A program made the position numbers and the translations under genes. Below the pieces are notes generated by a model, which made no database searches, had not been told where the DNA came from, and was given only the letters and a program-made list of their open reading frames with translations. From positions 1 through 57,805 of the forward strand of contig JAJFIK010000083.1 of the NCBI GenBank assembly GCA_021775005.1: 57,805 bases of DNA. Reading direction: 5' to 3'. The stretch is from Rhodospirillales bacterium (GTDB lineage: Bacteria; Pseudomonadota; Alphaproteobacteria; JAJFIK01). This document shows, in pieces, positions 16,145-48,616 of the stretch (positions are counted from its first letter, which is position 1; each line of letters opens with the position of its first letter).

Positions 16145-16187
16145 ATACCGTAACGGGCACGCGAAACGCCTCGCGCACCTTGAACGG

Positions 16188-16336: not shown

Positions 16337-16396
16337 CGCCTTGTTCGTTCCTTATTGGAACAAGCAAAAGATATGGCTGCGTGGAAGATGTATCAA

Positions 16397-17389: not shown

Positions 17390-17466
17390 AGGATCGGCGT
17401 GCGGTGAACGGACCCAGGTTCGACCGGACGCTTGGCGAGCTTGCCTCGCCTAATTTAGGCTCGACG

Positions 17467-24076: not shown

Positions 24077-24164
24077 GCAGCCACCCTTGAAATGATCTTC
24101 CCAGCCCAACCTCATTATGTTTGAAATATCGATGCTGTCACCAGCAAATAGCAGTTGGGCCAAG

Positions 24165-24179
24165 TTAACTGCGTTTTAA
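24165..24179. promoter_or_regulatory. CtrA-type box, exact TTAA-N7-TTAA
   Basis: TTAA-CTGCGTT-TTAA, an exact match to the CtrA consensus known from Caulobacter and relatives. It is 39 bases upstream of the PAS histidine kinase start and 88 bases upstream of the divergent binding-protein gene, so it could control either. Confidence 0.5.
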
Positions 24180-24218: not shown

Positions 24219-25784
24219 ATGACGCCCGATATGGAAAAAATTCTACCGCCGCCAGCGCTGCTCTCAGCCATCGCCCAAACTGGCGTGGGCTTCATATTCT
24301 GCGGCCTAGACCGGCGCATTGAATGGGTAAATGAAGCCTTCACCGCCATCACCGGTTACACGCTCAAGGAAGTCAAGGGCCAACTGACGCGCGATCTGGC
24401 CCTGTCGACCCCCCTTCAAGGCAATGTCATTGATGGCAACCTGACGAGGTTGGTGGAAAGCGGTGAAATTCGCTTTGAAGCAGATATCGCCCATAAGAAA
24501 GGTCAATCTGTGACGGTGGATGTTTGGTTTCGCCAAATCAAGGACGGCGACGAAGAGCTCATCGGATACCTAATTTCAGTAATCGACATTTCCGCACTTA
24601 CACGCACCAGAAAACGACTCACGGCATTTATGGAGAATGCGACAACAGGCATCGTTGTGCAAAATCAAGACGGTGAAATTATTGATTGTAATCCGGAAGC
24701 GGAGCGCTTGTTGGGGCTGACGCGAGAACAAATAAACGGCCGTCATTCTGTCGACCCTCGCTGGCGCGCCATTCGAGAAGATGGCTCTGACTTTCCCGGC
24801 GAGGAGCATGCCATTTCCCGCACGCTGCGGGATGGCGAACCCAGACACAACGAAGTCATCGGAATCCACACACCCGACGGGCGAACGCGGTGGCTTCTCG
24901 TCAATACTCGCGCATTCGCCAACGAAATCGATGGTCGCCGCAATGCGATTGCGAGCTTTAGCGATCTCACCTCGACCAAAGATAAGGAACAGCTGCTCAT
25001 TGCGTTGAGCCAGGAAAAGGAAGAGGCGCGAAAAAGGGCGGAAGACGGCACCCGCGCCAAGGCCGCCTTCCTGGCCACAATGAGTCACGAGATTCGCACG
25101 CCCCTCAACGGGGTAATGGGCATGCTGCAACTGCTTGCTCGCACCGTTGAAGATGAGAAGCAATCGGAATATGTGGATGTCGCGTATAAGTCAGCTGAAG
25201 GTTTGTTGCGGTTGCTCAATGATATTCTCGACTACTCAAAGCTTGAAGGCGGCAAAGTTAATGTGGAGAAAGAGCCTTTTTCCCCTGCGGAAGAGCTGGA
25301 GCGCATTATCACTTTGATGAAACCCCGCATCGTTGAGCGCGGCCTTGATCTGCTTGTGGATCGGAGCGGCGAGCACATTCCCTTTGCCGGTGATAGCGGG
25401 CGGTTTGGCCAGGTCCTGCTCAACCTCATTGGTAACGCGATTAAATTTACCGACCAAGGGCACGTGGAAATTTCTTTGCAGGTTCGCGACGGAGACACGC
25501 CCCAATTGCGCATGGAGATTACAGATACCGGAATCGGTATTGCCGCGGATTCGCAACGTCATCTTTTCAATCGGTTCTCCCAGGCGGATGCCTCCATCAC
25601 CCGGCGGTTCCAGGGAACCGGCCTGGGCCTCGCCATCAGCAAAGAACTCGTTGAGCTCATGGGGGGACGCATCGGTTTCACCAGTGAAGCTGGCGCCGGC
25701 TCAACATTCTGGTTCGAATTGCCAAGCGCCGAATGCGCGACAGATGCCGAACATCCTCAAGGGGCGAGCGCGGCGAATGGCTAG
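24219..25784 (+). CDS. Soluble PAS-PAS histidine kinase
   Basis: 521 residues with no membrane helix, so cytoplasmic. PAS domain 1 (about residues 12-125, FIFCGLDRRIEWVNEAFTAI, ITGYTLKEV) is followed by PAS domain 2 (about 135-260, GIVVQNQDGEIIDCNPEAER). HisKA (AAFLATMSHEIRTPLNGVMGM) and HATPase (NLIGNAIKFTDQGHV, DTGIGIAADS, GTGLGLAISKELVELMGG) follow. There is no receiver domain. The start is ATG 24219; ATG 24231 is an alternative. An exact CtrA-type box lies just upstream. The HisKA/HATPase type resembles the cell-cycle kinases of alphaproteobacteria, but the partner is not in the window. Confidence 0.92.
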   Translation: MTPDMEKILPPPALLSAIAQTGVGFIFCGLDRRIEWVNEAFTAITGYTLKEVKGQLTRDLALSTPLQGNVIDGNLTRLVESGEIRFEADIAHKKGQSVTVDVWFRQIKDGDEELIGYLISVIDISALTRTRKRLTAFMENATTGIVVQNQDGEIIDCNPEAERLLGLTREQINGRHSVDPRWRAIREDGSDFPGEEHAISRTLRDGEPRHNEVIGIHTPDGRTRWLLVNTRAFANEIDGRRNAIASFSDLTSTKDKEQLLIALSQEKEEARKRAEDGTRAKAAFLATMSHEIRTPLNGVMGMLQLLARTVEDEKQSEYVDVAYKSAEGLLRLLNDILDYSKLEGGKVNVEKEPFSPAEELERIITLMKPRIVERGLDLLVDRSGEHIPFAGDSGRFGQVLLNLIGNAIKFTDQGHVEISLQVRDGDTPQLRMEITDTGIGIAADSQRHLFNRFSQADASITRRFQGTGLGLAISKELVELMGGRIGFTSEAGAGSTFWFELPSAECATDAEHPQGASAANG

Positions 25785-33586: not shown

Positions 33587-33667
33587 ACTTGTCAGGCCCC
33601 TGTGCACTGTGAATGATTGCGGGGTTCAAGGTGACCCATTCACCGCCCCCAATGCAAGGTAATGCCC

Positions 33668-34516
33668 ATGGATTTCGTAACCGCTGATACGCTTTCCAAC
33701 GAAGCGCTTTATGAAGTCGCAATAGATGGATTCAGCGACTACGTCGTACCTACGGCCTGGACCTTTGAGCAATGGAGCGGTGTCATGACCCAGCGAGGGT
33801 TTGCACCGAAACTCTCGTTTGTTGCTTGCGAGGAGGGACGCCCGGTTTCCTTTTGGATCACCGGCATTGCCCCGAAAGCACGGCCAGGTGTTGGCTATGC
33901 CATCTCAGTGGGGACGCGGCCATCAGCGCGGCGACAGGGGCTTTCCGGGCAGCTTTTTGAGCACGTCTCTGCTTTGCTTAAGTCCCAAGGGTTTCATCAC
34001 ATGGTGCATGAAGTCATCACCACCAACGCGCCGGCGGTAAAACATTATGAGCGGCTTGGGTATAAGAAGTCCCGCCTTGTTCGGTGTTTTCGCGGTGATG
34101 TGGCCGCGGCTTTACGTATTCCCGACAATGTGGAGATCCAAGTCACGTCTTTGGATGAAGCCCAAGCTATTGCGCGGGATATCAGCGATTGGCAACCAAC
34201 CTGGCAGAATGACTTTCACGCTTTGCGGCAAAACGGTGAGCGCTCTGTAGCATTTTCCGCCACCCATGCGGGCCGCATTGTTGGATTTGGCGTGCTTATT
34301 CCCGATCATGAGCAAGTTGCCCAAATCGGCGTGATGCCCGCCTTTCGTCGCAAAGGGATTGCATCAGCTCTCTTTGCCCATTGGCGCGAACACTATGGTT
34401 TGTCCAAGGCGGCTTTAGTCAACGTTGACGAGGCAGATGCGCCATTGATCAAGCTCATAGGCGCCATCGGACTGGAGCCCACGGTTGACCAATATGAATT
34501 GACGCTTGATCTCTAA
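33668..34516 (+). CDS. Tandem GNAT acetyltransferase
   Basis: 282 residues from ATG 33668 (AAGG upstream; ATG 33662 is also possible). There are two acetyl-CoA-binding GNAT folds. The first has VGTRPSARRQGLSGQLFEHV and NAPAVKHYERLGY; the second has IGVMPAFRRKGIASALFAHW and a shorter end. Fused GNATs often keep one active half; here both halves have a recognisable pyrophosphate-binding R/QxxGxG/A-like loop (RRQGLSG, RRKGIAS). Substrate unknown. The gene stands alone between the divergent lldD-like gene and the converging coiled-coil gene. Confidence 0.87.
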   Translation: MDFVTADTLSNEALYEVAIDGFSDYVVPTAWTFEQWSGVMTQRGFAPKLSFVACEEGRPVSFWITGIAPKARPGVGYAISVGTRPSARRQGLSGQLFEHVSALLKSQGFHHMVHEVITTNAPAVKHYERLGYKKSRLVRCFRGDVAAALRIPDNVEIQVTSLDEAQAIARDISDWQPTWQNDFHALRQNGERSVAFSATHAGRIVGFGVLIPDHEQVAQIGVMPAFRRKGIASALFAHWREHYGLSKAALVNVDEADAPLIKLIGAIGLEPTVDQYELTLDL

Positions 34517-34525
34517 GAACAGGCG

Positions 34526-37405
34526 CTAAGACGCTTGGCGCTCGTCAACATCATCGGGCGCTGACGCATCACTGGTATCAACTGAGAGGTCTTTCAGCTC
34601 TTCCGTGAGACCGCGCAACGCATCATAAATGGCTGAGAGGTCTGCTTCTTCCGGTGGTTGCACATCAGAGACCCGATCTTTTGCGCCTGTTTTCACACCT
34701 GTGCCAAAGCCATCTGCAACTTCCGCCATATCGGGCCGCGTGATTGGCGTGGATGACCGCGCAATTTCGACCGCAAGGCTGTCGATGCGCCCGCCAAGCT
34801 CACTTATGGTTTCGCGCAAAGTGTCGTCGAGACGAATCTGTTGGCGGGTTAATGTGGCAAAGGAGCGCTCAATTTGCTGCGTGGCCGCATCACTATCTGA
34901 CGAACGAAGATGCCGCACAATACCGGAGAGGCCCTCTTGCATAGAAGTGGCGATGGCCTGTTGTGCGCGAGACAAGCCAGACTGAAGCCGCTCCACACGG
35001 CCGATGTGATTCATGATCTCACCGTCGGCACCACCATCGATGCTGGTAAGTTTATCACCTATGGCGCGCACTTCTTGAGCAATCGCCCGCGTTGTCTCGC
35101 CAATGCTTATAAGGCGTGGTTCAATAATGGCCGATGTGGGTGGATTGTCGTCATGACTTTCCAGCTGCTCACGCAAGCCATCCATTGTTGCCATCAGTTG
35201 TGCGGTCTGCTCGGCCTCAAGGGAAATGCGGGCCTCAAGGGCTTCAGAGAACTCCGCAAGTTCTTGCCCCACAACGGCGCTGCGCTCAGCGGTAAAGCTG
35301 GCTCGCGTTTGTTGACTTTGCCCTTCCACGACTTGGCTCAAGTGGGTCACTGCGCGGCCCATTTCGTTGCGCAAGGCGGCGAGTACGGGCGATAGATCCA
35401 CTGGCGAGGCGAGGCGGTCAGTGAGGGTGCTAAGGCTTTCGTCCAGAGTTTCGAGAGAGTCAGATATAAGCGCAACTTGTTCACCAATGGCGCGGCTTTC
35501 AGCATCAAAGCTCAAATGTAAGGACTTCAGATCGCCGGTAACCTCGCCGATGGTGACGGATTCACGATAAAACGCATCGCGGGCATCCTGCAGCGCGTCA
35601 TGGACGGCAGTGAGTTGCCCGCCAAGCTTACCAATCATGTCGCTGCCGGTATTCTCAAAAGTGCCGATTTTTTGCCCCAGGGCATTGATTTCTTGTTGCA
35701 GGCCATCAAAACGCGCAGGCAAGTCGCCAGCGCCGGAGTTTAGATCCTTTGCAAAGCTGCTGACTTTTGCTGCTGTGTCCACAAGATCGTTCATCGCTGT
35801 ATCGATTTGAAGACGCAAAGCCTGGCGCTCTTTCTTCCAATAGGCGCGATCAGCTTCGGACTCAGTGGCGGCGTGGTCGCGCGCGGCTCTTGCTGCTTCA
35901 ACTTCCTTGGACCAGAACCCGGTTGAGACTGCCGCTTCCTTGGCCGCTTCACTAAGCCCAAGCACGGAGCGCAGCAGACCGTCGCGAGCGGCATCAACCG
36001 GGCTAATGGTGCGTCCTGAAAGCTCCTCAAAGCTTTGGAGTGTCGATCCAAGCGCTTCGATGTGCACATCAAGCCCTTCGATACGTGCAGCCAGCCCGGC
36101 CCGTGCGTCTTCTCCCGCTGCCAAGGCGCGCGCCTGGTCTTCGGCCCATGCAGCTGAGATGTGATCAAGGCGGCTGCTCGCAACCTCGGTGCGCCCGACA
36201 GCGGTTTCGGCAACTTGGGCGAGGCGATCAGCGGTGCCATGCAAGCGGTCAAACTCACCGCGCATGGTTTCCCCAAGCCCAACCATCTCATTGCGCCACT
36301 CTTCTTCTGTGCCGGCGAAGGAGCGCCGCGCACCTTCAAGATCACCAGCGAGGCGAATGACGTTCTCCCCGGCATCAGAAAGACTTTGTAGCTGCCCTGA
36401 GGTTTCCGCAATGGTCTCGTCCAGCGCCGCTTCGAGGCGCGCCATGGCGGCCTCGCTGTTTTCAGAAATTGTTGATTCTGCACCGGTGAGGGCCTGGGCG
36501 GATGTGCGCGCCGCATCGGCAGCGGACCTTAGTTCGCCCAGTGCGTCGTCCACCGCGTCAGCCCCGTCCCCTTCCAGGCGCAAGCGCAATGCGCCATCGG
36601 GGCCAAAGGTCAAAAGCCGCCCGGCCTGAAGCTGGGCCCGTCTGATTTGGGCCGCAATGCGTGCCACGTCGCCGATTTCATCGGAGCGGGCTGCTTCGGG
36701 AAGCTCACGCTTTTCTTCGTCAACCATGAGGTCTTCAAGGTGATCGGCAAGCTTGCGTAGGGGACGCCGGATACCGAACCAAAACAGGGCGGCAGCCGAC
36801 GCCATGACAATAATGGCGAGGATCAACGCAATACCAGTGATCCAGCGCTGTAAATCAAGAATGGCAATGGCACCTGCGGTCTGCGCTTGTAATTCCATGG
36901 CGCGAAAACGATTAAGCGCGGTGTCAAAGGACGCCATGCCATCGGCAAATTCGATGGCCACAAGGGCGGGATCGCGCGTACCTGCCCCCAGCGCCACAAT
37001 CGCAAGTTCGCTTTCGGCAATGCGGGCCTGGGCGGCTTGCGCAAATATCGCGCTGTGGGCTTGATCTGTGATCGAAATGTTCGCCAACTCGCCCTCAGCC
37101 CCCGCCACAAGCTCAGCCATGAGCGCCAATGTGTCCGGGTTAGGTTGGGTGGCATAGATCATAAGGCGGCCAGACAATCCCCCGCGCCCCAAAAGCGCAT
37201 CGATTTCATCTGCGGCCTGCAGTTGGGAGTTAGTCGCGCGCCCATCCCGGGTCAATGCAGAGCGGGCCGCTTGACTCAAGTTATCGGTGAGGATCGCTGC
37301 CGCAATCAATAAAACCGTAAAGAAGACGGCCCCGGCCACCAGCATACGGCTGACAGAGGTGAACGGCGATACCCGCGCCTTACTCGTGGTCGTGGTCTTG
37401 CTCAT
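34526..37405 (-). CDS. HAMP-domain membrane protein with very long coiled coil
   Basis: 959 residues. TM1 (about 20-42, SRMLVAGAVFFTVLLIAAAIL) and TM2 (about 189-212, ITGIALILAIIVMASAAALFWF) enclose a helical periplasmic domain. A HAMP domain follows directly (RRPLRKLADHLEDL...RSDEIGDVARI). The remaining 700 or so residues are almost wholly Ala/Glu/Leu/Arg heptad coiled coil with a short acidic tail. It resembles a chemoreceptor in outline, but I find no MCP hairpin tip (the E-x-x-x-x-T-N-x-L-A-L-N-A-x-x-E-A-A-R-A-G-E core). It therefore probably does not bind CheA. It borders the Tad pilus block, and an exact CtrA-type box lies 96 bases upstream. A polar scaffold or mechanical sensor are possibilities; the function is unknown. 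Confidence 0.82.
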   Translation of the reverse strand: MSKTTTTSKARVSPFTSVSRMLVAGAVFFTVLLIAAAILTDNLSQAARSALTRDGRATNSQLQAADEIDALLGRGGLSGRLMIYATQPNPDTLALMAELVAGAEGELANISITDQAHSAIFAQAAQARIAESELAIVALGAGTRDPALVAIEFADGMASFDTALNRFRAMELQAQTAGAIAILDLQRWITGIALILAIIVMASAAALFWFGIRRPLRKLADHLEDLMVDEEKRELPEAARSDEIGDVARIAAQIRRAQLQAGRLLTFGPDGALRLRLEGDGADAVDDALGELRSAADAARTSAQALTGAESTISENSEAAMARLEAALDETIAETSGQLQSLSDAGENVIRLAGDLEGARRSFAGTEEEWRNEMVGLGETMRGEFDRLHGTADRLAQVAETAVGRTEVASSRLDHISAAWAEDQARALAAGEDARAGLAARIEGLDVHIEALGSTLQSFEELSGRTISPVDAARDGLLRSVLGLSEAAKEAAVSTGFWSKEVEAARAARDHAATESEADRAYWKKERQALRLQIDTAMNDLVDTAAKVSSFAKDLNSGAGDLPARFDGLQQEINALGQKIGTFENTGSDMIGKLGGQLTAVHDALQDARDAFYRESVTIGEVTGDLKSLHLSFDAESRAIGEQVALISDSLETLDESLSTLTDRLASPVDLSPVLAALRNEMGRAVTHLSQVVEGQSQQTRASFTAERSAVVGQELAEFSEALEARISLEAEQTAQLMATMDGLREQLESHDDNPPTSAIIEPRLISIGETTRAIAQEVRAIGDKLTSIDGGADGEIMNHIGRVERLQSGLSRAQQAIATSMQEGLSGIVRHLRSSDSDAATQQIERSFATLTRQQIRLDDTLRETISELGGRIDSLAVEIARSSTPITRPDMAEVADGFGTGVKTGAKDRVSDVQPPEEADLSAIYDALRGLTEELKDLSVDTSDASAPDDVDERQAS

Positions 37406-37500: not shown

Positions 37501-37515
37501 TTAACGACTTGTTAA
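37501..37515. promoter_or_regulatory. CtrA-type box, exact TTAA-N7-TTAA
   Basis: TTAA-CGACTTG-TTAA followed by C, the full CtrA consensus. It lies 96 bases upstream of the HAMP/coiled-coil gene start, in the 145-base gap before the end of the tadE-like gene. Confidence 0.6.
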
Positions 37516-37550: not shown

Positions 37551-37994
37551 CTAACCGTCCTGATTGATCAATGGGAATTCGGCCGTATGAGACAGGGTGA
37601 GATTATTCACCGGGAAAAAGGGCGTAATCGGCGTGTGGACATAGCTGGTGACAACACGGACGATGTCTGGCGCTTCGCCAGCTCCCATTGTGCGCGTCAC
37701 CGTCACGGAAAGATCCCCTGACGCCAGCCGCGACAATTGGAGCTCAATCTCAGCTTCGATTTCAGAATTACTAACCCCGCCGGGATCAACTGATGCAATC
37801 CGCGCAGCACGATCCACATGAAACCCGATTTGGCTCTGAGTCCAAAGGACTTGCCCGGTCTCATAGATGCCAAACATCATGGCGAAGAATACCGGCGCGA
37901 CAAACGCAAATTCAACGGCGACGCTACCGCTTTCATCAGCGCTCATCTCGTTCGCGGAGCTGGGTTTGAAGTATTTCATAATGCTTTGGATCAC
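37551..37994 (-). CDS. TadE/TadF-like minor pseudopilin
   Basis: 147 residues from GTG 37994; an ATG at 37979 is the alternative. A short cytoplasmic leader ends in ADESG, followed by SVAVEFAFVAPVFFAMMFGIYETGQVLW: a prepilin-peptidase-type site (Gly, then Glu at +5) and one hydrophobic helix that stays in the membrane until assembly. The C-terminal domain is periplasmic (INQDG end). TadE and TadF are minor pseudopilins required for Flp pilus assembly. It is the last gene of a leftward three-gene set, 11 bases after the next TadE-like gene. Confidence 0.85.
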   Translation of the reverse strand: MIQSIMKYFKPSSANEMSADESGSVAVEFAFVAPVFFAMMFGIYETGQVLWTQSQIGFHVDRAARIASVDPGGVSNSEIEAEIELQLSRLASGDLSVTVTRTMGAGEAPDIVRVVTSYVHTPITPFFPVNNLTLSHTAEFPLINQDG

Positions 37995-38005
37995 TTATCG
38001 ACGCC

Positions 38006-38452
38006 TCATGGCACTTGCAGAAACCCGGAGCGAGATACATCTACTGTCGCGCCGATGATTGGATAGTTGAAAAGCGTTGATACAGATCGAGCCATATCAA
38101 TTTGCACAAATATTCGTTTATAGCCTTGGGTGCATTGACTGCTGCAAACAAGCGAGGTGCCGTCGGGGCACTCACAGAACATGGAATAAGCTGACGTCGC
38201 CTCGCCATCCGCATAGCCGCTTCCGGCAAATGATGCAGTGGTGATATCGGCGCTCGCATAAGCATCAGCCAAGGCGTAGCGCAGGCCCGCTGTGACACCA
38301 TCGTTGAGACGCGCATTAGCATCAATGACCCGGCCCGCATCAACGAGACCGAGAAACATGATCGCCATAACCGGCACAATCAATGCGAACTCAACCACGG
38401 CATTGCCGCTGTCGTTGCGCCGAAACTCGGCAATGAAATTCCTATAGGTCAT
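38006..38452 (-). CDS. tadE: TadE-like minor pseudopilin
   Basis: 148 residues from ATG 38452, with GGAG about ten bases upstream; the longer frame to 38515 runs into the preceding gene. The leader ends RRNDSG, then NAVVEFALIVPVMAIMFLGLVDAGR, the Gly/Glu+5 pseudopilin signature. The periplasmic part carries four Cys in a short span (CECPDGTSLVCSSQC), suggesting disulfides. It begins five bases after the stop of the TadG-like gene, so the genes are co-transcribed. It is probably matured by the prepilin peptidase encoded on the other side (cpaA). Confidence 0.87.
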   Translation of the reverse strand: MTYRNFIAEFRRNDSGNAVVEFALIVPVMAIMFLGLVDAGRVIDANARLNDGVTAGLRYALADAYASADITTASFAGSGYADGEATSAYSMFCECPDGTSLVCSSQCTQGYKRIFVQIDMARSVSTLFNYPIIGATVDVSRSGFLQVP

Positions 38453-38457
38453 GGCCC

Positions 38458-39762
38458 TTACTCCACCAATGTCACGGTAATTGCCCCAATGCGGCTGAGG
38501 CTGGGATCGTCGCATTCCTGCTCGATCTCGAAATTACCTGTAAATGTCACAGCGCCGGAGACCACCTGCACACAGCCATCATCCAATGTGGCATTGCCCG
38601 ACATGTAGACTTCGACGCCCGGCGCATAAATCACGCCAAAGTAATGCGACGACGAGTTGCCATTGACCTGCCAACGCGCCGAGGACGACGAAGAAACTTC
38701 ATCGCCGCGTGGATCGCGCATGAATAGAATGCCCTCGTAGTCGCCTGCGGTCGACGCTGACAGGTCCATTTCCGCAGACCCATTTATGGTCGGCTCACCT
38801 GGATCAGTGGGGTCATCTGAATTTGTGAAAACAATGGTAACGCCGTCGCCATAGACATCGGCATTGGCATTCACATTGAAGTCGCCGCCGTCCATGAAAT
38901 AGGTTCCTGGCGCCATTGTTATGCCGGCATTGGCGTTGACTCTCAGGTCACCGCAATAAACGCCGGGCTCCAACACATCGCCGTTTTTCGCGCGAACATT
39001 ATTGTAGTCGCAGCCACCCGCGAGATCCGCATCATCAACCTCAAGATCCGCGTAAGGGTTTATGACCGGATTGGAATAGGGGCGGAATGCGGCTACGGCC
39101 TCAATGTTCCCGCCGTCATCAATACCGCCAACGGCCGTCACCACCGTTGTACTGACATAGGACGATCCACTTGCAGAAACAGCATTACCTGCCGTTGAAT
39201 TTGATGCAATGCCGCAGCCAAGAAACGCCGCGGAAGACCCCGAAAATGTCACTGCACCAGACAACGATGGATGCAGCGTCAAGATGCAGTAGTTCCCATC
39301 CGCATATGTTCGCGCCACCGCGCGCGCACTTGCCTCTGGGGTGCCGCCAAATACAACACCTGCAAGGAACACATCAATTTCCTGCGTTGCAATGACCTCC
39401 ACCGCCGTGTTGTCACCGACAAATTCACCGCTAAGCGGGGGGTTGTTCACCTGCAAAGTGGCCAGGAGACTGTCCGGTACGCCATTTCGCGTTAACTCAT
39501 TGCGCACAATTGTGGTGAGACTTTCGCCATTATAGGCCGCAGCCCCTTGCAAGGCGCGATCTGACGATGCGGCCAGCGTTGCCATGTCCACAGCCGCCTG
39601 GAGGCGACTATCGGTGCGATACCAATTGGCGGCATCAATGCCGAAGGCGATGGAGCCCACCATAAATACACTTGAGAGGGAAAAGAGCATTGCCGTTGCG
39701 CCAGACTCTTCGCCTGCGAAAGTCCGCAACTCAGTAATAAAGGATCGAAGCCAACGCATCAT
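38458..39762 (-). CDS. tadG: TadG-like pilus assembly protein
   Basis: 434 residues from ATG 39762 (or ATG 39759; GGAG just upstream). The N-terminus has the Flp-type hydrophobic segment (EESGATAMLFSLSSVFMVGSIAFGIDAANWY) but lacks Glu at +5, so it is probably not cleaved like a pilin. The Tad_N-type helix is followed by RLQAAVDMATLAASS. The large periplasmic region is rich in Asn, Ser and Gly with repeating beta motifs (NVNANADVYGDGVTI, WQVNGNSSSHYFGVIYAPG), suggesting a beta-helix. No von Willebrand A MIDAS motif is evident. TadG proteins are thought to anchor or initiate the pilus. First gene of the leftward set. Confidence 0.82.
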   Translation of the reverse strand: MMRWLRSFITELRTFAGEESGATAMLFSLSSVFMVGSIAFGIDAANWYRTDSRLQAAVDMATLAASSDRALQGAAAYNGESLTTIVRNELTRNGVPDSLLATLQVNNPPLSGEFVGDNTAVEVIATQEIDVFLAGVVFGGTPEASARAVARTYADGNYCILTLHPSLSGAVTFSGSSAAFLGCGIASNSTAGNAVSASGSSYVSTTVVTAVGGIDDGGNIEAVAAFRPYSNPVINPYADLEVDDADLAGGCDYNNVRAKNGDVLEPGVYCGDLRVNANAGITMAPGTYFMDGGDFNVNANADVYGDGVTIVFTNSDDPTDPGEPTINGSAEMDLSASTAGDYEGILFMRDPRGDEVSSSSSARWQVNGNSSSHYFGVIYAPGVEVYMSGNATLDDGCVQVVSGAVTFTGNFEIEQECDDPSLSRIGAITVTLVE

Positions 39763-39955
39763 GATCTCCGCAATAAAAACTGTCATGCGGTAACATACGT
39801 GGGATGCATTCCGACGCGCTTAAATCCGGTGGGAGGTTTTAATTAAGATTTTCGAGAAATTAAAACGAAAACGCCGCGCCTCGATTTTACCCGGGGCGCG
39901 GCGCCGATAAAGCCAAACATTAACTAAGCGAAGACCAAGCTGCGCCTAACCCCGT

Positions 39956-40423
39956 CTATTCTTCATCATCTTGGGTCTCCAGACCAAGCGGCCAGGATGA
40001 CAGATTCTGCAATTGGCGATCTTGTGAAAAAATACTATTGGCACGATCGGGGTCATCCCCGGGCTGATAAACCTGAACACAATTTCCCGGGCAGGCGTAT
40101 GTCACTCGATCAGCACCGCGATAAAGAGATAGCGCCAAATGCTGTTCCGCCCCCACGGTGACTTGTATGTTCGCAATGGCTTCGCCGCCTGCGTTGAGTG
40201 CGATAACATTCGTCGTACCAAATAACCGGCCTTGCACAATCAGTAAATTCCCATCCAGGACAACCACATCCGCAATCATCGGATTACCGACAATGACCGT
40301 CGCGGCTTCGCTTTCAAGGCGAACAACTTCAGAGCTGTTCTGCGACACCGTCAACACAGATGCACTCGCCGGCAGGACCAGGGCCCCAAGGCAAAGCGAT
40401 ACGAATATTCCTAGAAAGCGCAT
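39956..40423 (-). CDS. Stand-alone pilus-assembly N-terminal domain protein (CpaC/RcpA N-domain)
   Basis: 155 residues from ATG 40423 (GGGAGAG upstream). A signal peptide (MRFLGIFVSLCLGALVLPASA) is followed by the domain found at the N-terminus of the Tad secretin: EVVRLESEAATVIVGNPMIADVVVLDGNLLIVQGRLFGTTNVIALNAGG. The true secretin encoded at 42608 has the matching stretch (DAADILVTNPEIVDAV). A C-terminal CPGNC pair may form a disulfide and the tail is acidic. It could be a periplasmic partner or plug for the secretin ring. It is transcribed away from the pilin gene. Confidence 0.85.
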   Translation of the reverse strand: MRFLGIFVSLCLGALVLPASASVLTVSQNSSEVVRLESEAATVIVGNPMIADVVVLDGNLLIVQGRLFGTTNVIALNAGGEAIANIQVTVGAEQHLALSLYRGADRVTYACPGNCVQVYQPGDDPDRANSIFSQDRQLQNLSSWPLGLETQDDEE

Positions 40424-40800
40424 TTTACTCTCCCCACCATCGGGTTTCATTCCCGGCCAAGGTGGCACAGAAACGTAAATGCGCTCTCAACGAATTGGAT
40501 TGAGTTTGAGCAGAGCAAAAATGCCCTGTTTTGATGTACTCATTATAGATAGCGAAAAACGATAGAATACTGTGGTCACGCAGTGCGCGAGGCTCGCCAT
40601 ACGGTGGCGTTAAATATAAAACGAATTTCTCCAAAAATTTTAACGAAAAATTAGCCACGAACCAATTCAGCACTCGAAAAACGATCGCCGGTTTAACGAA
40701 TTGGCAACGGCACTTTCGTAGGGTGTGATTGTCAGCGAACGGAGCATGTCGCTTTAGATCGCGGACGGTGCTGAAGAGTAATTTATTGGGAGTATATATT
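40424..40800. promoter_or_regulatory. Divergent promoter region of the Tad locus
   Basis: 377 bases without a gene, AT-richer than the surroundings. It must hold promoters for the leftward secretin-domain gene and for the Flp pilin operon. It contains TTAA-CGAAAAA-TTAG (40640-40654), one mismatch from the CtrA consensus, and TTAA-CGAATTG-GCAA (40693-40707), a weaker half-match. A GGAG ribosome-binding site lies nine bases before the pilin ATG. I see no convincing -35/-10 pair by eye. Confidence 0.55.
40640..40654. promoter_or_regulatory. CtrA-like box upstream of Flp pilin, one mismatch
   Basis: TTAA-CGAAAAA-TTAG, 146 bases before the pilin start codon. In Caulobacter the pilA promoter is CtrA-activated, which makes the position meaningful, but the match is imperfect and the region is AT-rich. 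Confidence 0.35.
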
Positions 40801-40987: not shown

Positions 40988-41036
40988 GCCGTTCCCCGGC
41001 CTTTGCCATTCACGTGGCAAGGGTCGGGGCAACGGC
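40988..41036 (+). promoter_or_regulatory. Long stem-loop between pilin gene and cpaA
   Basis: Left arm 40988-41008 pairs with right arm 41015-41036: 21 pairs including two G-U, one bulged C (41030), and a six-base loop TTCACG. No T-run follows, so it is more likely a 3' stabilising or partial-termination structure than a full terminator. The pairing is read base by base from the sequence. Confidence 0.7.
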
Positions 41037-41115
41037 CCGGGAGTTCCTGCACACAAAAAAAATTGCGTGTTGGCATTGCTTTCATGGGTCCGGGGCCCGA
41101 TTGGGGGAGACATCG

Positions 41116-41619
41116 ATGACCGAATTTGCGGTCTTTCTGCTTCTACCGGCTGCGTTTCTTCTCGCGGCCTTTTCCGATCTTACCCGCTACACCATTCCAA
41201 ATTGGCTAACGGGCGCGATCGCCCTTAGCTTTATTCCCGTCGCCCTATTCGCTGGCCTCGCGCCCCTCGCTATATTGATTCATCTTGGCGTTGGCTTCGT
41301 CGCGCTGGGCATTGCTATGATGCTATATGCCATGCGGTGGCTGGGCGGCGGAGATGCAAAGCTAATCGCCGCGGCAGCCCTTTGGGCCGGCCCGACGGCA
41401 TTCTGGGTCTTTTTACTCGCAGCCGCCCTTGCCGGCGGTGCGCTGACTTTGGGACTGTTATTTTTTCGTAAACTTCCTTTGCCGCCTCTTTTCGCATCAC
41501 GCGAATGGATTGCACGACTTCATGACCCGAAAGAAGGCGTCCCTTATGGCGTTGCCCTTTCGGCCGGCGCGTTTTACGCCTTTCCCTACATGACCCTCTC
41601 TCAAATGCTTGGGTCTTGA
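41116..41619 (+). CDS. cpaA: Prepilin peptidase CpaA/TadV
   Basis: 167 residues from ATG 41116 (GGGGGAGA upstream). Type IV prepilin aspartic peptidase of the short Tad class. The first catalytic Asp is in FSDLTRYTIPNW, and the second lies in the WLGGGDAKLIAA motif (GxGD type). There are several membrane helices and no N-methyltransferase domain. It cleaves the leader of the Flp pilin and of the TadE-like pseudopilins. Second gene of the Tad operon; a perfect 24-base palindrome follows in the gap before cpaB. Confidence 0.95.
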   Translation: MTEFAVFLLLPAAFLLAAFSDLTRYTIPNWLTGAIALSFIPVALFAGLAPLAILIHLGVGFVALGIAMMLYAMRWLGGGDAKLIAAAALWAGPTAFWVFLLAAALAGGALTLGLLFFRKLPLPPLFASREWIARLHDPKEGVPYGVALSAGAFYAFPYMTLSQMLGS

Positions 41620-41657
41620 GGAACACGGATTAATCAAATGACAAGAAGCATAAACAA

Positions 41658-41681
41658 CCTGCCCAGAAATTTCTGGGCAGG
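41658..41681. repeat. Perfect 24-base palindrome between cpaA and cpaB
   Basis: CCTGCCCAGAAA followed by its exact reverse complement TTTCTGGGCAGG, with no spacer. In RNA it would fold as a nine-pair stem with an AAATTT loop. There is no downstream T-run. It could be a protein-binding operator, an attenuator or a processing site that separates pilin-cpaA from the machinery genes. Confidence 0.65.
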
Positions 41682-41692
41682 ACGCCACGGCG

Positions 41693-41707
41693 TTAAGACT
41701 AATTTGA
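41693..41707. promoter_or_regulatory. CtrA-like box upstream of cpaB, one mismatch
   Basis: TTAA-GACTAAT-TTGA, seven of eight consensus positions, 67 bases upstream of cpaB. It would give cpaB-tadC their own promoter. The evidence is weak without experiment. Confidence 0.3.
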
Positions 41708-41774
41708 TTCACTTTGCGCATTGTAGAGACCAACGAAGTGGGAGTCGCTCGCGCGACATGGGGAGACAAGACCA

Positions 41775-42608
41775 ATGAACGCTACTCGAATTGTTATACT
41801 GGTGCTGGCACTCGCAGCCGCCGGCGGAGCAGCATTCTTGATCCAACGGCTTATGCTGAGCAACAACGACCAGGTCGTCGCAGCAGCGCCTGAAGTGATT
41901 ATGGTTGATGTCCTTGTCGCAGCACGGGACCTGGCCCCTGGCGATAGCATAAATTCTGGCTCGCTGCGTTGGCAGCAATGGCCTGAAGATGCGCTGACGC
42001 CAAATTTGATATCACGTGAGGCAACACCAAATATTCGTGAGACACTAGAAGGCGGCACCGTTCGCCGCAATGTCACGACCGGTGAAGCCATTGTAGCAGC
42101 GGCGATCGTTGATGCAGGCAATACTGGCTTAATGGCTGCGCTGCTTTCGCCGGGTATGCGGGCCATGTCGGTGGCCGTTTCTGACGAGACGGCAGCAGGC
42201 GGTTTTATCCTGCCCGGTGACCATGTCGATGTGGTTCTGACTCGCGAGGTTAGCACCGACCGCCGCAATTCATCGTATCAAAGTGCAACAATCCTGTCCA
42301 ACGTGCGCGTATTGGCGGTTGATCAGATCATCACCGATGACATTGATGGTGGTGCAAAGGTAAGCGACACGGCTACGCTGGAAATCTCGCCGGGCCAGGC
42401 AGAGTTGCTGGCGATTGCCATTGAGGCGGGGAGTATCACATTGACACTCCGCAGCTTCGCCGACATCGGCGCAGTTCAGGATGATCTCGCTAATTACGAG
42501 ATGCCGGAAATATTTGCGCCGCCGGCATCAACGCAAACCGAACCTCACCGCGTTACGGTGTTGCGCAACGGTCAATCAAACCGCGTCCGCGTTGAAGGGG
42601 GCATGTAA
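41775..42608 (+). CDS. cpaB: Flp pilus assembly protein CpaB/RcpC
   Basis: 277 residues. One N-terminal membrane anchor (RIVILVLALAAAGGAAFLIQRL), then a SAF domain (VDVLVAARDLAPGDSINSGSLRWQQWP) and the RcpC domain (GMRAMSVAVSDETAAGGFILPGDHVDVVLTRE). It is thought to help assemble or gate the secretin in the periplasm. Its TAA stop overlaps the cpaC ATG by one base, so translation is coupled. A good ribosome-binding site (GGGGAGA) lies upstream. Confidence 0.95.
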   Translation: MNATRIVILVLALAAAGGAAFLIQRLMLSNNDQVVAAAPEVIMVDVLVAARDLAPGDSINSGSLRWQQWPEDALTPNLISREATPNIRETLEGGTVRRNVTTGEAIVAAAIVDAGNTGLMAALLSPGMRAMSVAVSDETAAGGFILPGDHVDVVLTREVSTDRRNSSYQSATILSNVRVLAVDQIITDDIDGGAKVSDTATLEISPGQAELLAIAIEAGSITLTLRSFADIGAVQDDLANYEMPEIFAPPASTQTEPHRVTVLRNGQSNRVRVEGGM

Positions 42609-44092
42609 TGACCAACAAATTTTCAAAAAAATTGATGGGTGCACTGGTCGGCGGCATTGTCGCGACTTTGGCGATTGCTGGCCCCGCCCAGGCGACCGAG
42701 AGCCCGATGTTTGTGACCATTCACGAAGCAGGCAGCGGTCACACCGCGCGCGATATCACCATCCCTCTTGATAAGTCGGTGATTGTCGAATTGCCGGTCG
42801 ATGCAGCGGACATATTGGTCACCAATCCTGAAATCGTGGACGCCGTTGTGCGCACACCGCGCAGAACGTATTTGATGGGTCGCGGCGTTGGACAGACGAA
42901 CGCCTATTTCTTTGACTCTCGGGGACGGCAAATTCTCAATCTTGAGATTCGGGTTGAACGTGATCTATCCCCTTTGACCGATCTATATGACGAGCTCATT
43001 CCCAGTGCGAACATTGAAGTCAACGCCATCAATGATAATTTGGTGCTGACCGGGTTTGTACCAAACGCTGTTGCCGCTGATCAGGCGCGGGACCTGGCAG
43101 GTCGCTTTGTCGGCAATCCTGAGTTCATCCTCAATATGCTTAGTATCGAGGCCAACGAGCAGGTCATGTTGCAAGTGCGCATCGTGGAGATGCAACGCAG
43201 CTTTGCAAGGCAATTGGGCGTGGATCTCAGCTCGGCCTTTAGCACCAGCAATCTGATGCTGACGGCGGGGACGGTAAACCCCCTGTCGGTCGTCGGTCGG
43301 GCCTTGGGCGGCCTTGGGCCAGCAGGGAGCTCTCGATCTCTGCGCTGGACACCAGATAGCGGCCAGCCTGGCGAGTATCTGGATGGCACCATTCGCGCCT
43401 TTGAGCGCAATGGCTTGTTGCGCATGCTGGCGGAGCCGAACTTGACCGCTATTTCTGGTGAAACAGCCAACTTCCTTGCGGGCGGTGAATTTCCGGTCCC
43501 GTCAGGCCGCGATCGCAATGGCAATGTAAGCATTGAATTTAAGCCCTTTGGCGTGGGCTTGGGCTTTACACCCGTCGTGATGGATGAGGGCCGTATTTCC
43601 CTGCGCATCGCCACAGAAGTGTCAGAGCTTTCCAGCGACGGTGCCATTCAATTGGATCAGACGACATTCACAGACCCCGATACCGGCGAAGTTACAGTTA
43701 TTGCTGGCACGACCATTCCTGGTTTGACCGTGCGGCGCGCTGAAACAACGGTTGAGCTTCCTTCCGGTGGCAGCATGGTCATCGCGGGGCTGTTACAAGA
43801 TCAAACGCGCCGCAATATGGATGGCGTGCCTTGGGTGAAAGACACCCCGGTCCTTGGTGCTTTGTTCCGGTCTGAAGACTACCAAAACGACGAAACAGAG
43901 CTTGTCATCATTATCACGCCTTATCTGGTGGACCCTGTGGCAATGAATGAACTGGCGACCCCTGATCTTGGATATGTGCCCGCCAATGCTGCTGATTCAG
44001 GCCTGCTCGGCCGCCTTCACGCCATGTATGGCGTAGGCGAAGGGGCAACTGGTCGCCGCTTGCAAGGGCCCGTCGGCTACATCGTGGAGTAA
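42608..44092 (+). CDS. cpaC: Tad secretin CpaC/RcpA
   Basis: 494 residues. A signal peptide (GALVGGIVATLAIAGPAQA) precedes the pilus-assembly N-terminal domain (IPLDKSVIVELPVDAADILVTNPE), a BON-like domain (IEVNAINDNLVLTGFVPN) and the secretin core (MLAEPNLTAISGETANFLAGGEFPVP, FGVGLGFTPVV, TVELPSGGSMVIAGLLQDQ, WVKDTPVLGALFRSEDY, ELVIIITPYLV). It forms the outer-membrane ring through which the pilus leaves. It packs against cpaB (one-base overlap) and cpaD (five-base gap). Confidence 0.96.
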   Translation: MTNKFSKKLMGALVGGIVATLAIAGPAQATESPMFVTIHEAGSGHTARDITIPLDKSVIVELPVDAADILVTNPEIVDAVVRTPRRTYLMGRGVGQTNAYFFDSRGRQILNLEIRVERDLSPLTDLYDELIPSANIEVNAINDNLVLTGFVPNAVAADQARDLAGRFVGNPEFILNMLSIEANEQVMLQVRIVEMQRSFARQLGVDLSSAFSTSNLMLTAGTVNPLSVVGRALGGLGPAGSSRSLRWTPDSGQPGEYLDGTIRAFERNGLLRMLAEPNLTAISGETANFLAGGEFPVPSGRDRNGNVSIEFKPFGVGLGFTPVVMDEGRISLRIATEVSELSSDGAIQLDQTTFTDPDTGEVTVIAGTTIPGLTVRRAETTVELPSGGSMVIAGLLQDQTRRNMDGVPWVKDTPVLGALFRSEDYQNDETELVIIITPYLVDPVAMNELATPDLGYVPANAADSGLLGRLHAMYGVGEGATGRRLQGPVGYIVE

Positions 44093-44097
44093 GAAAA

Positions 44098-44796
44098 ATG
44101 TTTGGACAAGATATGAAATCGCTCACGAGATTGCTTGCCGCCATCGGTTTTTCCGCTTTGGCGGGTTGTGCGTTGCCGGGGACCACAGATCCAGACCTGG
44201 TGATGCTCCCTGAAGTGGCGCACCCCATCACGGTTGAAGCCACAACGGCGGAAATGGAGATCCTGGTCAATCCGCAATCGGTGGCACTGCTTCGAGTGGA
44301 CGAGACGCGGTTGCGGGCCTTTGCCGCCGCCTATCGCACCCGCGGTCATGGACCCATGACGGTCTATGTACCGTCCCATTCACCCAATTCAATGGCAGCC
44401 GTTCAAGTTATGGCCGATGTCCACCGCGTTTTAGTGGTGGAGGGTTTGCACCCAGATGCGGTGCAATCGCGCGCCTACACCCCAACTGAAAACCCTGAGT
44501 GGTCGCCCATCGTTTTGGCATTCACGCGGTATGAGGCCAGCGCCAGCCCCTGCGGCGATTGGAGCGAGTCCTACACCGTACGGTTCAATGGCAATCCATC
44601 ACCAAATTGGGGTTGCGCCACACAGAACAATTTGGCGGCGATGGTTTCTGAGCCATCTGATTTGATCCGTCCTCGCGAGATGAGCCCGGCAAGTGCCGCA
44701 CGCCGCTCAACAGTTCTTGAAAATTACCGCGCGGGCCGAGACACCGCGAGCCAATCGTCCAGCCAAGGCAATGGCCTTGTCAGCGAAGTCGAATAA
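44098..44796 (+). CDS. cpaD: Pilus assembly lipoprotein CpaD
   Basis: 232 residues from ATG 44098 (ATG 44113 is also possible). The lipoprotein signal has a clear lipobox LAGC (SLTRLLAAIGFSALAGC), so it is likely anchored in the outer membrane. The CpaD domain contains NMAAVQVM-like AAVQVMADVHRVLVVEGL and the CGDWSESY ... NWGCATQNNLAAMVSEPSDLIRPRE segment, diagnostic of the family. CpaD is required for correct secretin assembly. The C-terminus is Ser/Gln-rich. Confidence 0.93.
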   Translation: MFGQDMKSLTRLLAAIGFSALAGCALPGTTDPDLVMLPEVAHPITVEATTAEMEILVNPQSVALLRVDETRLRAFAAAYRTRGHGPMTVYVPSHSPNSMAAVQVMADVHRVLVVEGLHPDAVQSRAYTPTENPEWSPIVLAFTRYEASASPCGDWSESYTVRFNGNPSPNWGCATQNNLAAMVSEPSDLIRPREMSPASAARRSTVLENYRAGRDTASQSSSQGNGLVSEVE

Positions 44797-44814
44797 TTCT
44801 GGAAGGAATGCACT

Positions 44815-46164
44815 ATGGCTGATTTTGCGGAAAACCTTTCTCCCGACGACGATGGTTTCGACATTGCTGAAGACTTTGGCAGCAGTGAAGATCAATCGAA
44901 GTCGCTCACTGCGGCACTTACCACAGAGGGCTTGAGCCCCATTGAGCCCAGCGATGCTCAATTGAACCCGCGACCGGTGCCGCGCATTAGTATCGATTGT
45001 TTCTGTGATAGCCCTGAGACCGGCGCGAGCGTTCAGCGCGCGGCCGAGGATCGGCGTCTCGCCCGCACCCATACAACTGTTTATATGGGCGGCATCGCGG
45101 CGGCCATTGATCACTATGCAACGCGCGCAACCCCAAACCTCATTCTCGTTGAAACGAAAGATGATGGTCAGGATATTCTCGACGGGTTGTCCCAACTTGC
45201 TGACCAATGCGACGCCACAACTAAAGTGATCGTGTTGGGCGCAAAAAATGACATTTTGCTCTACCGCGAATTGATCCAGCAGGGGGTCAGCGATTACATG
45301 ATCACGCCGCTGACGCCCCTTCAAATTATCGATTCGATCTCTGGTCTTTATGCTGATCGGGATGCATCTCCTATCGGTCGGGTTGTGGTCTTTGTCGGTG
45401 CCAAAGGCGGCGTTGGCGCGAGCGCCTTGGCGCATAACGTCGGGTGGTTGATCGCCGAAGAAGCAAATGATGATGTCACGATCGTGGATTTTGACGTGGC
45501 ATTTGGGACCGCGGGCCTTGATTTCAATCAGGAACCAACGCAAGGCGTCTCAGACGCGCTGGCCTCGCCGGAGCGTCTTGACGATGTTCTTTTGGACCGC
45601 CTGCTAGTGAGGTGCACAGATCATTTGAATGTGCTCACCGCACCTGCGGCTTTGGATAAAGACACAGATATTGATCCGGGGTCGTATGAGGCGGTACTGG
45701 ACGTCGTGCGCCAATCCAGCCCGGTTGTCATTGTTGATCTGCCGCATGTTTGGTCGGCGTGGTCAAAGCAAGTCATGGTCGCGGCGGACGAAGTTGTCAT
45801 CGTCTCTACGCCAGATCTGGCGGGCTTGCGCAATACCAAAAACCTTGCGGATCTGCTTGTACTGGCCCGTCCCAATGATGCGCCGCCGCGGGTTGTACTC
45901 AATCAATGCGGCATACCCAAGCGGCCGGAGGTTCCAGCAAAGGATTTTGCTGAAGCCGTCGGGCGTGAGGTTGTCGCCGCGGTGCCTTTCGATGCCATGT
46001 TGTTCGGAACCGCCGCGAACAATGGCCAAATGCTCGGAGAGTTGAAATCTGCGACCAAGCCTACGGACGAACTCCGCAAATTGTCGCAATTGCTGACGGG
46101 CCGCCAGGCGCAAGGCAAAAAGCCTCAAGGCTTGTTCGCCAAGCTAATGGGACGGAAGAAATAG
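44815..46164 (+). CDS. cpaE: Pilus localisation ATPase CpaE/TadZ
   Basis: 449 residues. An acidic N-terminus and an atypical receiver-like domain (about residues 60-175) precede a MinD/ParA-type ATPase domain with deviant Walker A (VFVGAKGGVGASALAHNVGWL), a switch-like VDFDVAFGTAGLDF and the VIVDLPHVWS segment. CpaE/TadZ marks the pole or assembly site for the pilus. The C-terminal tail is Lys-rich (KKPQGLFAKLMGRKK). It ends one base before the cpaF start codon, so the two are translationally linked. Confidence 0.95.
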   Translation: MADFAENLSPDDDGFDIAEDFGSSEDQSKSLTAALTTEGLSPIEPSDAQLNPRPVPRISIDCFCDSPETGASVQRAAEDRRLARTHTTVYMGGIAAAIDHYATRATPNLILVETKDDGQDILDGLSQLADQCDATTKVIVLGAKNDILLYRELIQQGVSDYMITPLTPLQIIDSISGLYADRDASPIGRVVVFVGAKGGVGASALAHNVGWLIAEEANDDVTIVDFDVAFGTAGLDFNQEPTQGVSDALASPERLDDVLLDRLLVRCTDHLNVLTAPAALDKDTDIDPGSYEAVLDVVRQSSPVVIVDLPHVWSAWSKQVMVAADEVVIVSTPDLAGLRNTKNLADLLVLARPNDAPPRVVLNQCGIPKRPEVPAKDFAEAVGREVVAAVPFDAMLFGTAANNGQMLGELKSATKPTDELRKLSQLLTGRQAQGKKPQGLFAKLMGRKK

Positions 46165-46165
46165 A

Positions 46166-47614
46166 GTGTTTGGCAAACGTGCAAACGATCCAACTGAGCG
46201 TTCAACCCCTGCCGCCGCAAAGAAGCGGGCGGCAGCGTCTGCGTCTGCGCCAAAACCTAACCGCACCAATATAGAGCTGAGGGCACCAAATGAGGTGCCC
46301 AAGGCGCTACCAAAGACCAGCGCACCTGGTACACGGTCAGAAGATTACTACGTTACCAAGCAGTCCATTTTCGCGGCATTGATCGATACCATTGATTTAG
46401 GGCAATTGGCGCAATTGGATGCCGAAAGTGCGCGCGACGAAATTCGTGACATTGTCACAGAGATTGTCACCCTTAAAAACGTTGTCATGTCTGTGTCCGA
46501 GCAAGAGAATATGCTCGAGGATATTTGCAACGATGTTCTGGGCTACGGCCCGCTTGAGCCCCTACTCGCACGCGACGACATATCAGACATCATGGTCAAT
46601 GGCGCCGGGCGCGTCTTTATAGAAGTAAAGGGCAAAATCGAACTGACGCCCATTCGCTTCCGTGACAACCAACAACTAATGAACATCTGCCAGCGGATTG
46701 TGAGCCAAGTCGGCCGCCGCGTGGATGAATCAAGCCCCATATGCGATGCGCGCTTGCATGACGGTAGCCGTGTCAACGTCATTGCCCCGCCTTTGGCGAT
46801 TGATGGCGCGGCATTGACCATCCGGAAGTTTAAGAAGGACAAGCTCAGGCTCGCTGATCTCGTCAATTTCGAGTCAATCAATGAAGCTGGTGCGGACATT
46901 CTGTCCATCATCGGCGCGTCGCGCTGCAATGTGCTGATTTCGGGTGGGACAGGTTCCGGTAAAACAACTTTGCTGAACTGTATGACTGCTTTCATCGAAG
47001 AAAGTGAGCGTGTTGTTACATGCGAAGACGCGGCGGAACTTCAATTGCAGCAGCCCCATGTGGTGCGTCTTGAAACCCGCCCGCCAAACCTGGAAGGGTC
47101 TGGTGAAGTCACCATGCGTGACCTGGTGAAAAACTGTCTGCGGATGCGGCCCGAGCGCATTATCGTGGGCGAGGTGCGGGGGCCCGAAGCGTTTGACCTG
47201 CTTCAGGCTATGAACACCGGCCATGACGGGTCGATGGGGACCCTTCACGCCAACTCACCGCGCGAAGCCTTGTCGCGACTGGAGAGTATGATCACGATGG
47301 GCGGGTTCTCCCTGCCCTCCAAAACCATTCGCGAAATGATCGTCGGCTCCATCGATGTCATTATCCAGGCAGCACGGCTGCGGGACGGATCGCGGCGCAT
47401 CACTCACATCACTGAAGTAATTGGCGCCGAAGGTGACACCATAATTACCCAGGATGTGGTGCTGTTTGATATCGAAGGCGAAGATGATGGCACCATTTTG
47501 GGCCGCCACCGCGGCACTGGCATTGCCCGCCCAGTTTTTTGGGAGCGTGCGCGGTACTTCAACCTTCATCCAAAATTGGCTAGTGCCCTTGACCGCCTGA
47601 ACGGAGATATCTGA
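46166..47614 (+). CDS. cpaF: Tad secretion ATPase CpaF/TadA
   Basis: 482 residues from GTG 46166, with GGAAG upstream. It is the hexameric motor that powers Flp pilus assembly. A Lys/Ala/Pro-rich N-terminal tail (SRA-like charge) is followed by the N-domain ([20 protein letters not shown]) and the RecA-like core: Walker [15 protein letters not shown], Asp box [10 protein letters not shown], Walker [20 protein letters not shown], His box [15 protein letters not shown]. It is full length for the family. tadB starts three bases after the stop. Confidence 0.97.
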
Positions 47615-47617
47615 GCC

Positions 47618-48604
47618 ATGTCTGCCATGCTGCTGACCATTGTCATTTCTGTTCTTGCCCTTCTGACGGTGGGCGGCGTTGGCTACTCTTTAGTGGGTGC
47701 AGATCCCCACGCTGCGCGCGCGCGCCAACGTCTTCAGAGCGTCAAGCGGGGAACCACGGTCACCTCGCGGGAAAGCAAGCAACAACAAAAAGAGCAAGAT
47801 CGCCGCAAGACCGTTCAAAAAGCGCTGCATGAACTTGAAGAGAAACAGAAGCAAGGCAAAAAGCTTCCCCTCGATACACGAATTGAGCAGGCTGGCCTTG
47901 AATTCGGGGTGTTGACGTTCTGGCTTGCATCGCTCGGGTTTGGGGTATTTGTCTTTCTCGCCATGTTGATGGGTGGCTTAAATCCCCTTGTCGCGGCGGG
48001 CGGGGGCCTTGCCGCGGGCTTTGGGTTCCCGCGCTGGGTCATCGCCTTTTTGACCGCTAAGCGGCAAAAAGTCTTTATGGAAGAATTTGCCAATGCCCTT
48101 GATGTGATCGTGCGCGGGGTCAAGGCAGGCTTACCGCTGACCGAATGCCTGAACATCGTGGCACGTGAGAGCCCCGACCCCGTGGGTAGCGAGTTTCGCA
48201 GTATCGTCGAAGGTAGCCGCATGGGGATTACCCTGGAAGAGGGTCTGCAGCGCATGTATGAGCGCATGCCGGTGCCCGAGGTGAACTTCTTCGTCATTGT
48301 GCTGTCGATCCAATCGAAAACCGGCGGCAATTTGTCGGAGGCATTGGGCAATCTCACCACTGTGCTACGCGATCGCAAATCTATGCGCGGAAAAATTCAA
48401 GCTATGTCGTCTGAGGCGAAGGCGTCCGCAGGGATCATCGGCTCTCTTCCTCCCGGTGTCGCGGCGCTGATTTTCGTCTCCACCCCGGATTACATTCGCC
48501 CGTTGTTCACAGAGCAAATGGGCAATCTTCTTATCCTTGGCGGTGCCATATGGATGACCATTGGCGTGCTGGTAATGAAGAAAATGATCAACTTCAATTT
48601 CTAG
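47618..48604 (+). CDS. tadB: Tad inner-membrane platform protein TadB
   Basis: 328 residues. Type II secretion F-like fold: a first helix (LLTIVISVLALLTVGGVGYSLVG), a basic cytoplasmic stretch (KQQQKEQDRRKTVQK), and two central and one terminal membrane helices. The T2SSF domain contains FANALDVIVRGVKAGLPLTECL and SIQSKTGGNLSEALGNLTTVLRDR. With TadC it forms the inner-membrane platform that couples the CpaF motor to pilin addition. AGGAGGAG follows its stop as the ribosome-binding site of tadC. Confidence 0.95.
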   Translation: MSAMLLTIVISVLALLTVGGVGYSLVGADPHAARARQRLQSVKRGTTVTSRESKQQQKEQDRRKTVQKALHELEEKQKQGKKLPLDTRIEQAGLEFGVLTFWLASLGFGVFVFLAMLMGGLNPLVAAGGGLAAGFGFPRWVIAFLTAKRQKVFMEEFANALDVIVRGVKAGLPLTECLNIVARESPDPVGSEFRSIVEGSRMGITLEEGLQRMYERMPVPEVNFFVIVLSIQSKTGGNLSEALGNLTTVLRDRKSMRGKIQAMSSEAKASAGIIGSLPPGVAALIFVSTPDYIRPLFTEQMGNLLILGGAIWMTIGVLVMKKMINFNF

Positions 48605-48616
48605 GAGGAGGACAAC

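Follow-up and report, generated by a model that had tools for sequence, protein, structure and literature searches.

The window, the whole stretch of DNA analysed (57,805 nucleotides from a Rhodospirillales bacterium), contains beside a Tad pilus locus a gene for a protein of 959 residues. The parts encoded by the whole gene follow one another in the order TM1, periplasmic four-helix bundle, TM2, HAMP, hairpin, coiled coil and C-terminal helix. The order was sampled by three genomes, the own genome and two relatives (G001 and G002, both MAGs), and the gene is found in all three; the homologues in G001 and G002 are open frames with about 41% identity. The features of the locus are listed below.

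33662-34516: GNAT gene, inserted in this window between the gene and the side of the FMN-dependent dehydrogenase
34526-37405 (-): whole gene, 959 residues with an ATG start, one open frame
37289-37345 (-): TM1, residues 21-39, from hydropathy
36857-37267 (-): periplasmic four-helix bundle, residues about 47-183, predicted Tar/Tsr-type sensor fold, from AlphaFold2 and VIA-align
36776-36832 (-): TM2, residues 192-210, from hydropathy
36620-36778 (-): HAMP domain, residues about 210-262, from Pfam, profile and alignment
36569-36616 (-): family hairpin LTFGPDGALRLRLEGD, residues about 264-279, from its gapless spacing to HAMP and from prediction
34751-36562 (-): helical heptad-periodic (coiled-coil) region, residues about 282-885, from periodicity against shuffles and from the model
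34583-34639 (-): conserved C-terminal helix LSAIYDALRGLTEELKDLS, residues 923-941, in genus members only, from alignment
37501-37515 (-): predicted CtrA box TTAACAAGTCGTTAA with CC directly after it, at a distance of about 95 nt from the ATG on its upstream side
37551-39786 (-): TadE, TadE and TadG-like genes, directly upstream of the gene
41014-49594 (+): core Tad genes for a prepilin peptidase, CpaB, the secretin CpaC, CpaD, CpaE and CpaF
within 41014-49594 (+): TadB/TadC, assigned by position

Architecture of the protein

Hydropathy reveals two hydrophobic segments only in the 959-residue protein, residues 21-39 and 192-210. The periplasmic region is all-helical in the AlphaFold2 model, with a pLDDT of about 80 over residues 61-170. 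The best fold matches of this bundle in VIA-align are the four-helix sensor domains of chemoreceptors and histidine kinases (Z 13-15); the match to the chemoreceptor sensor domain 2asr has a Z of 15.2 and an rmsd of 1.7 with 125 aligned residues. Unrelated helical proteins begin at about Z 12 in the same list, a modest margin for helical bundles, and the assignment of a Tar/Tsr-type sensor fold is strengthened by the order TM, bundle, TM, HAMP.

HAMP is below the Pfam cut-off in the window protein alone (15.4 bits, E 0.025) and just under it in the G001 homologue (23.5 bits, E 3e-4). Its identity is settled by a profile of the HAMP block from six members of the family, which matches HAMP structures of Af1503 with an E of 1.4e-8. 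The landmarks of HAMP, a two-helix domain after a TM with a proline and D-x-x-G, are present in the six-member alignment. The two membrane helices, the periplasmic helical domain and the HAMP domain that an earlier note had read from the DNA are borne out by hydropathy, by AlphaFold2 with VIA-align and by the six-member profile. That description was right in its architecture, but it overlooked the hairpin that follows HAMP and the CtrA box upstream of the gene. The hairpin, around FGPDGALRLRLEGDG, is predicted as two short strands with a pLDDT of 55-60. Fold comparison of the HAMP-hairpin-helix block gave low scores (Z about 5 or less), with a coiled-coil stalk and HAMP structures at the top.

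The region after the hairpin has coiled-coil-like periodicity (mean power 4.9, compared with 1.85 +/- 0.33 in shuffles), as it does in two homologues, and is predicted to be helical by AlphaFold2. The strong periodicity agrees with the coil of about 700 residues described earlier, but the coil spans about 600 residues (282-885) and is not uninterrupted to the end of the protein: a low-confidence linker follows, and then the short conserved C-terminal helix. The full-length AlphaFold2 model has a mean pLDDT of 47.7 and does not provide a reliable arrangement of the coiled coil.

Output domain and chemotaxis partners

The claim that the protein lacks the MCP core was confirmed by a profile search for a divergent domain, in which MCPsignal (PF00015) had no match at E<=10 in any of three homologues. 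Pfam and NCBIfam scans found no MCP, kinase, cyclase or GGDEF domain in the window protein. MCPsignal and CheW have no matches in the own genome, which is 97.8% complete. Coupling of HAMP to a CheA array is therefore very unlikely, in agreement with the earlier proposal that HAMP is used here for something other than control of CheA. Flagellin was undetected in the own genome and in G002, and is present in G001. Pfam matches to Baculo_PEP_C, IFT57 and DUF1664, and SMC-like NCBIfam matches, were coiled-coil matches below the cut-off and were set aside.

Members of the family

A class-wide profile search covered 385 genomes with at most two candidates scored per genome, so that further members of the family may be missed. 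Most matches were the HAMP domains of ordinary MCPs, kinases and cyclases, which were sorted out by the MCP tip, a kinase motif or Pfam. At least three distant members were left after sorting: L137 (in genome G116) and L138 (G219), and L140 (G307), which come from two alphaproteobacterial families other than that of the window, L137 and L138 from one and L140 from the second. L137 and L138 are 34% identical over 478 residues. Each of them is only weakly similar to the window protein, and the membership of L137, L138 and L140 hence rests on the HAMP-hairpin block and on the architecture that they have in common. This block, which runs from HAMP to the hairpin, is gapless in all six members and ends in [DQT]-x-G-x-x-x-x-R-[FL]-E-G, after which the coiled coil begins.

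The periplasmic bundle is absent in two of the six members. The alignment indicates that the G002 homologue retains TM1, a short loop, TM2 and all later parts, and L140 is likewise devoid of the bundle. The shared core thus consists of a membrane anchor, HAMP, hairpin and coil, with the sensor optional. The C-terminal helix LSAIYDALRGLTEELKDLS was not seen in the distant members.

Other searches returned little. A single-protein search of the contigs of close relatives gave no match, and alignment found the G001 and G002 homologues only. The post-HAMP region alone retrieved no convincing relative outside the genus, the viral contigs searched held no relatives, and among plasmids L137 matched only HAMP domains from rhizobial MCPs. 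A literature search for a HAMP/coiled-coil protein with this build gave no paper. Judged by sequence, these proteins are an undescribed alphaproteobacterial family, defined by HAMP joined gaplessly to a conserved hairpin and then a coiled coil; the family is new, as an unusual combination of known parts. A hybrid kinase in G047 (L017/L139) has a periplasmic motif, GFAGFIHHYKDFVLYG, that resembles the bundle motif LGRGGLSG / LGYSGFLG, hinting that this kinase and the family bundle may have a shared sensor ancestor.

Genomic surroundings

In all three genomes of the genus, the gene has an FMN-dependent dehydrogenase gene on one side and the Tad genes on the other. It is downstream of tadG-tadE-tadE on the same strand in two of them, the own genome and G001; in G002 the adjacent tadE is inverted and the gene is still in place. 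No terminator-like site was found in the 145-bp gap between the gene and tadE. G001 has two CpaB loci, and its sole copy of the gene adjoins one of them.

The three distant members are set among different genes. L137 is near genes for an aldose epimerase and for a cytidylyltransferase with a glycerophosphotransferase, L138 is near an FtsW/RodA gene, and L140 has as neighbours a hybrid kinase gene and one that is GvpL/F-like. RcpC/CpaB had no match in the G219 genome, which carries L138. No similar ORF, by profile or by build, was found within about 10 kb of any of the 40 Tad loci examined in other families of this class. The association with Tad proposed in the earlier note holds for the three genomes of the genus, but not for the three distant members or the 40 Tad loci; the gene is not encoded with Tad genes across lineages, and the Tad neighbourhood is a feature of the genus and not of the family.

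Several further features were recorded. At 39956-40468 (-) of the window, opposite to the main Tad run, the secretin N-terminal pilus domain T2SS-T3SS_pil_N is encoded as a protein of its own, with a counterpart at the same place in G001 and G002. An FMN riboswitch (117 bits) lies at 16187-16337 (-) of the window and a tRNA at 17263-17349 (+). In locus L021, a Tad/TadG-like ORF with a long Asp/His-rich repeat run (DDDDHDDDD) is found at positions 14297-16075 of that locus, and locus L022 has a related gene with Asp and Gly runs at its positions 17026-18756.

A conserved CtrA box

The predicted box upstream of the gene, TTAACAAGTCGTTAACC, is a perfect TTAA-N7-TTAA with a trailing C. The same kind of box lies upstream of both homologues, so that a perfect CtrA box is conserved in three CtrA-encoding genomes, which is new. 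It is the sole TTAA-N7-TTAA in the 20-kb locus of each relative, where 0.10 and 0.07 are expected, and falls within the most conserved block of the intergenic alignment, G002 with its inverted tadE included. CtrA is encoded in all three genomes with 80-81% identity to Caulobacter CtrA, and these matches are far above any other response regulator. In sequence terms, the gene thus has what marks a member of the CtrA regulon, a conserved upstream TTAA-N7-TTAA in genomes that encode CtrA. The pattern is hardly enriched genome-wide over a reversed control (20 and 15 strand hits, respectively, in the own genome), and the argument for CtrA accordingly rests on conservation at the gene. Promoters with TTAA-N7-TTAA track CtrA through the cell cycle in Caulobacter, where full CtrA sites drive predivisional transcription (PMC4287350), and the CtrA motif is conserved and functional across the Alphaproteobacteria (PMC9437464). 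Among the distant members, a box, TTAACCATAAGTTAA, directly precedes the start of L138, with a chance of about 0.008 in 150 bp, and no perfect box was found just upstream of L137 or L140.

Similar sites occur elsewhere. All three genomes of the genus also have TTAA-N7-TTAAC upstream of a gene that resembles protein-L-isoaspartate methyltransferase (L116, L123 and L127; sites near 1501), and this is a second candidate for CtrA that is conserved. In the own genome, a box identical to TTAACAAGTCGTTAA is found elsewhere (L111, G000:C31:2620), with a gene encoding an Hpt-like protein on one side and a divergent one on the other. At 24165-24179 the window has a second exact TTAA-N7-TTAA, flanked by the genes for a solute-binding protein (22508-24163, -) and for a PAS-PAS histidine kinase (24219-25784, +).

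Discussion

Research on HAMP domains usually concerns their role as relays, whether to a kinase, a cyclase or the CheA array. The best explanation for the window protein, to which we give an even chance, is a CtrA-controlled membrane-anchored coiled-coil scaffold that works by analogy like TipN or PodJ; it is the anatomy together with the predicted CtrA control that points to a membrane scaffold of this type. The scaffold would retain a sensory receptor's front half, from the first TM through the four-helix bundle and the second TM to HAMP, without a catalytic or CheA-coupling output. The two TM helices and HAMP would dimerise and anchor it in the inner membrane, the conserved short hairpin would link HAMP to a long dimeric coiled coil extending into the cytoplasm, and the coil would recruit partners. 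Transcription of the gene would be controlled by the cell-cycle regulator CtrA, in which case production of the scaffold would be limited to a single stage or cell type. Its most likely task would be to organise a cell pole. The polar scaffold of the earlier note fits the anatomy and the CtrA box as far as the scaffold is concerned; its polar position is what we infer. It is plausible that the Tad pilus machinery is a client in this genus, and not the defining client of the family.

The retention of HAMP, and of the sensor bundle in most members, speaks against a passive scaffold and suggests signalling. A true signal receptor with an unrecognised output is possible, if somewhat doubtful: the bundle would bind a ligand or a periplasmic protein, HAMP would relay the shift, and the hairpin and coil would regulate, in trans, a kinase or another partner protein. 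The bundle has a sensor-type fold, HAMP is real, and the hairpin keeps a constant spacing to HAMP in all six members, as such a receptor would have it. However, the G002 homologue and L140 have lost the bundle, which argues that neither pilus-tension nor ligand sensing is the shared function of the family, and no partner gene stays adjacent across families. A sensor role may be retained by the members that keep the bundle. The same loss disfavours the pilus tension sensor that had been suggested earlier. A Tad-specific factor in this genus, either a scaffold for the pilus machine or a tension sensor, is unlikely as a whole. The gene remains beside Tad in three of three genomes despite the rearrangement of tadE/tadG in between, is on the strand of tadG-tadE-tadE in two of them across a gap free of any terminator-like site found, and adjoins a CpaB locus as the sole copy in G001. 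Yet three genomes of one genus say little beyond synteny, the FMN dehydrogenase on the opposite side is equally conserved, the distant members are away from Tad (one of them in the genome with no CpaB match), and the gene is absent at the 40 Tad loci of other families.

An envelope or cell-shape protein is improbable; as a membrane coiled coil, it would space or organise the nucleoid or the synthesis of the cell wall. L138 adjoins FtsW/RodA, L137 adjoins wall genes of the glycerophosphotransferase type, and there are weak coiled-coil matches to SMC and ZorA models; but the neighbours vary between members, and matches to SMC-like models are expected from coiled-coil composition. A decayed, functionless chemoreceptor would account for the missing signalling tip and for a genome in which neither MCP nor CheW is found, but hardly deserves credence, given a frame that is open in all members, invariant positions in HAMP and the hairpin, and a conserved promoter element, all despite large divergence.

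If the reading as a CtrA-controlled scaffold is true, HAMP would be coupled directly to a long coiled coil without the CheA pathway, a receptor front end turned into a cellular scaffold, and the family would be a concrete candidate for pole marking in alphaproteobacteria outside Caulobacter. A more far-reaching version is held to be rather improbable. In it, a chemoreceptor front end became a CtrA-controlled polar landmark in a widespread alphaproteobacterial family, the state of HAMP would set the register of the coil through the hairpin, an envelope signal would switch the recruitment of polar clients, and TipN would be a possible member.

Comparison with known systems

TipN is similar in size to the window protein. 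Tar/Tsr-type chemoreceptors (MCPs) have the same order and folds of TM, four-helix bundle, TM and HAMP; unlike them, the window protein is without the MCP signalling hairpin, and its genome is without a detectable MCP or CheW. Af1503 of Archaeoglobus, the best PDB profile match, is likewise a HAMP transmembrane protein without a standard output domain (PMC3585426), but it is archaeal and has no long coiled coil or hairpin after HAMP. PodJ, a coiled-coil scaffold anchored in the membrane, recruits CpaE of the Tad system (PMC9684454) and has a TTAA-N6-TTAA CtrA site upstream (PMC4287350), as the window gene has a predicted CtrA box. The topology of PodJ is the opposite one, with cytoplasmic N-terminal coils, one TM and a periplasmic peptidoglycan-binding C-terminus. 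TipN, a polarity scaffold of Caulobacter crescentus, carries two TMs in its N-terminal part and a large cytoplasmic coiled coil in its C-terminal part (PMC9178275, PMC4460556), and the window protein is built alike in both respects. The two are likened by description, as an analogy only, and descriptions of TipN contain no HAMP or sensor bundle (PMC9178275, PMC4460556). Were TipN shown to be linked to the family, this would hint at the descent of a landmark protein regarded in one review as Caulobacter-specific (PMC4460556).
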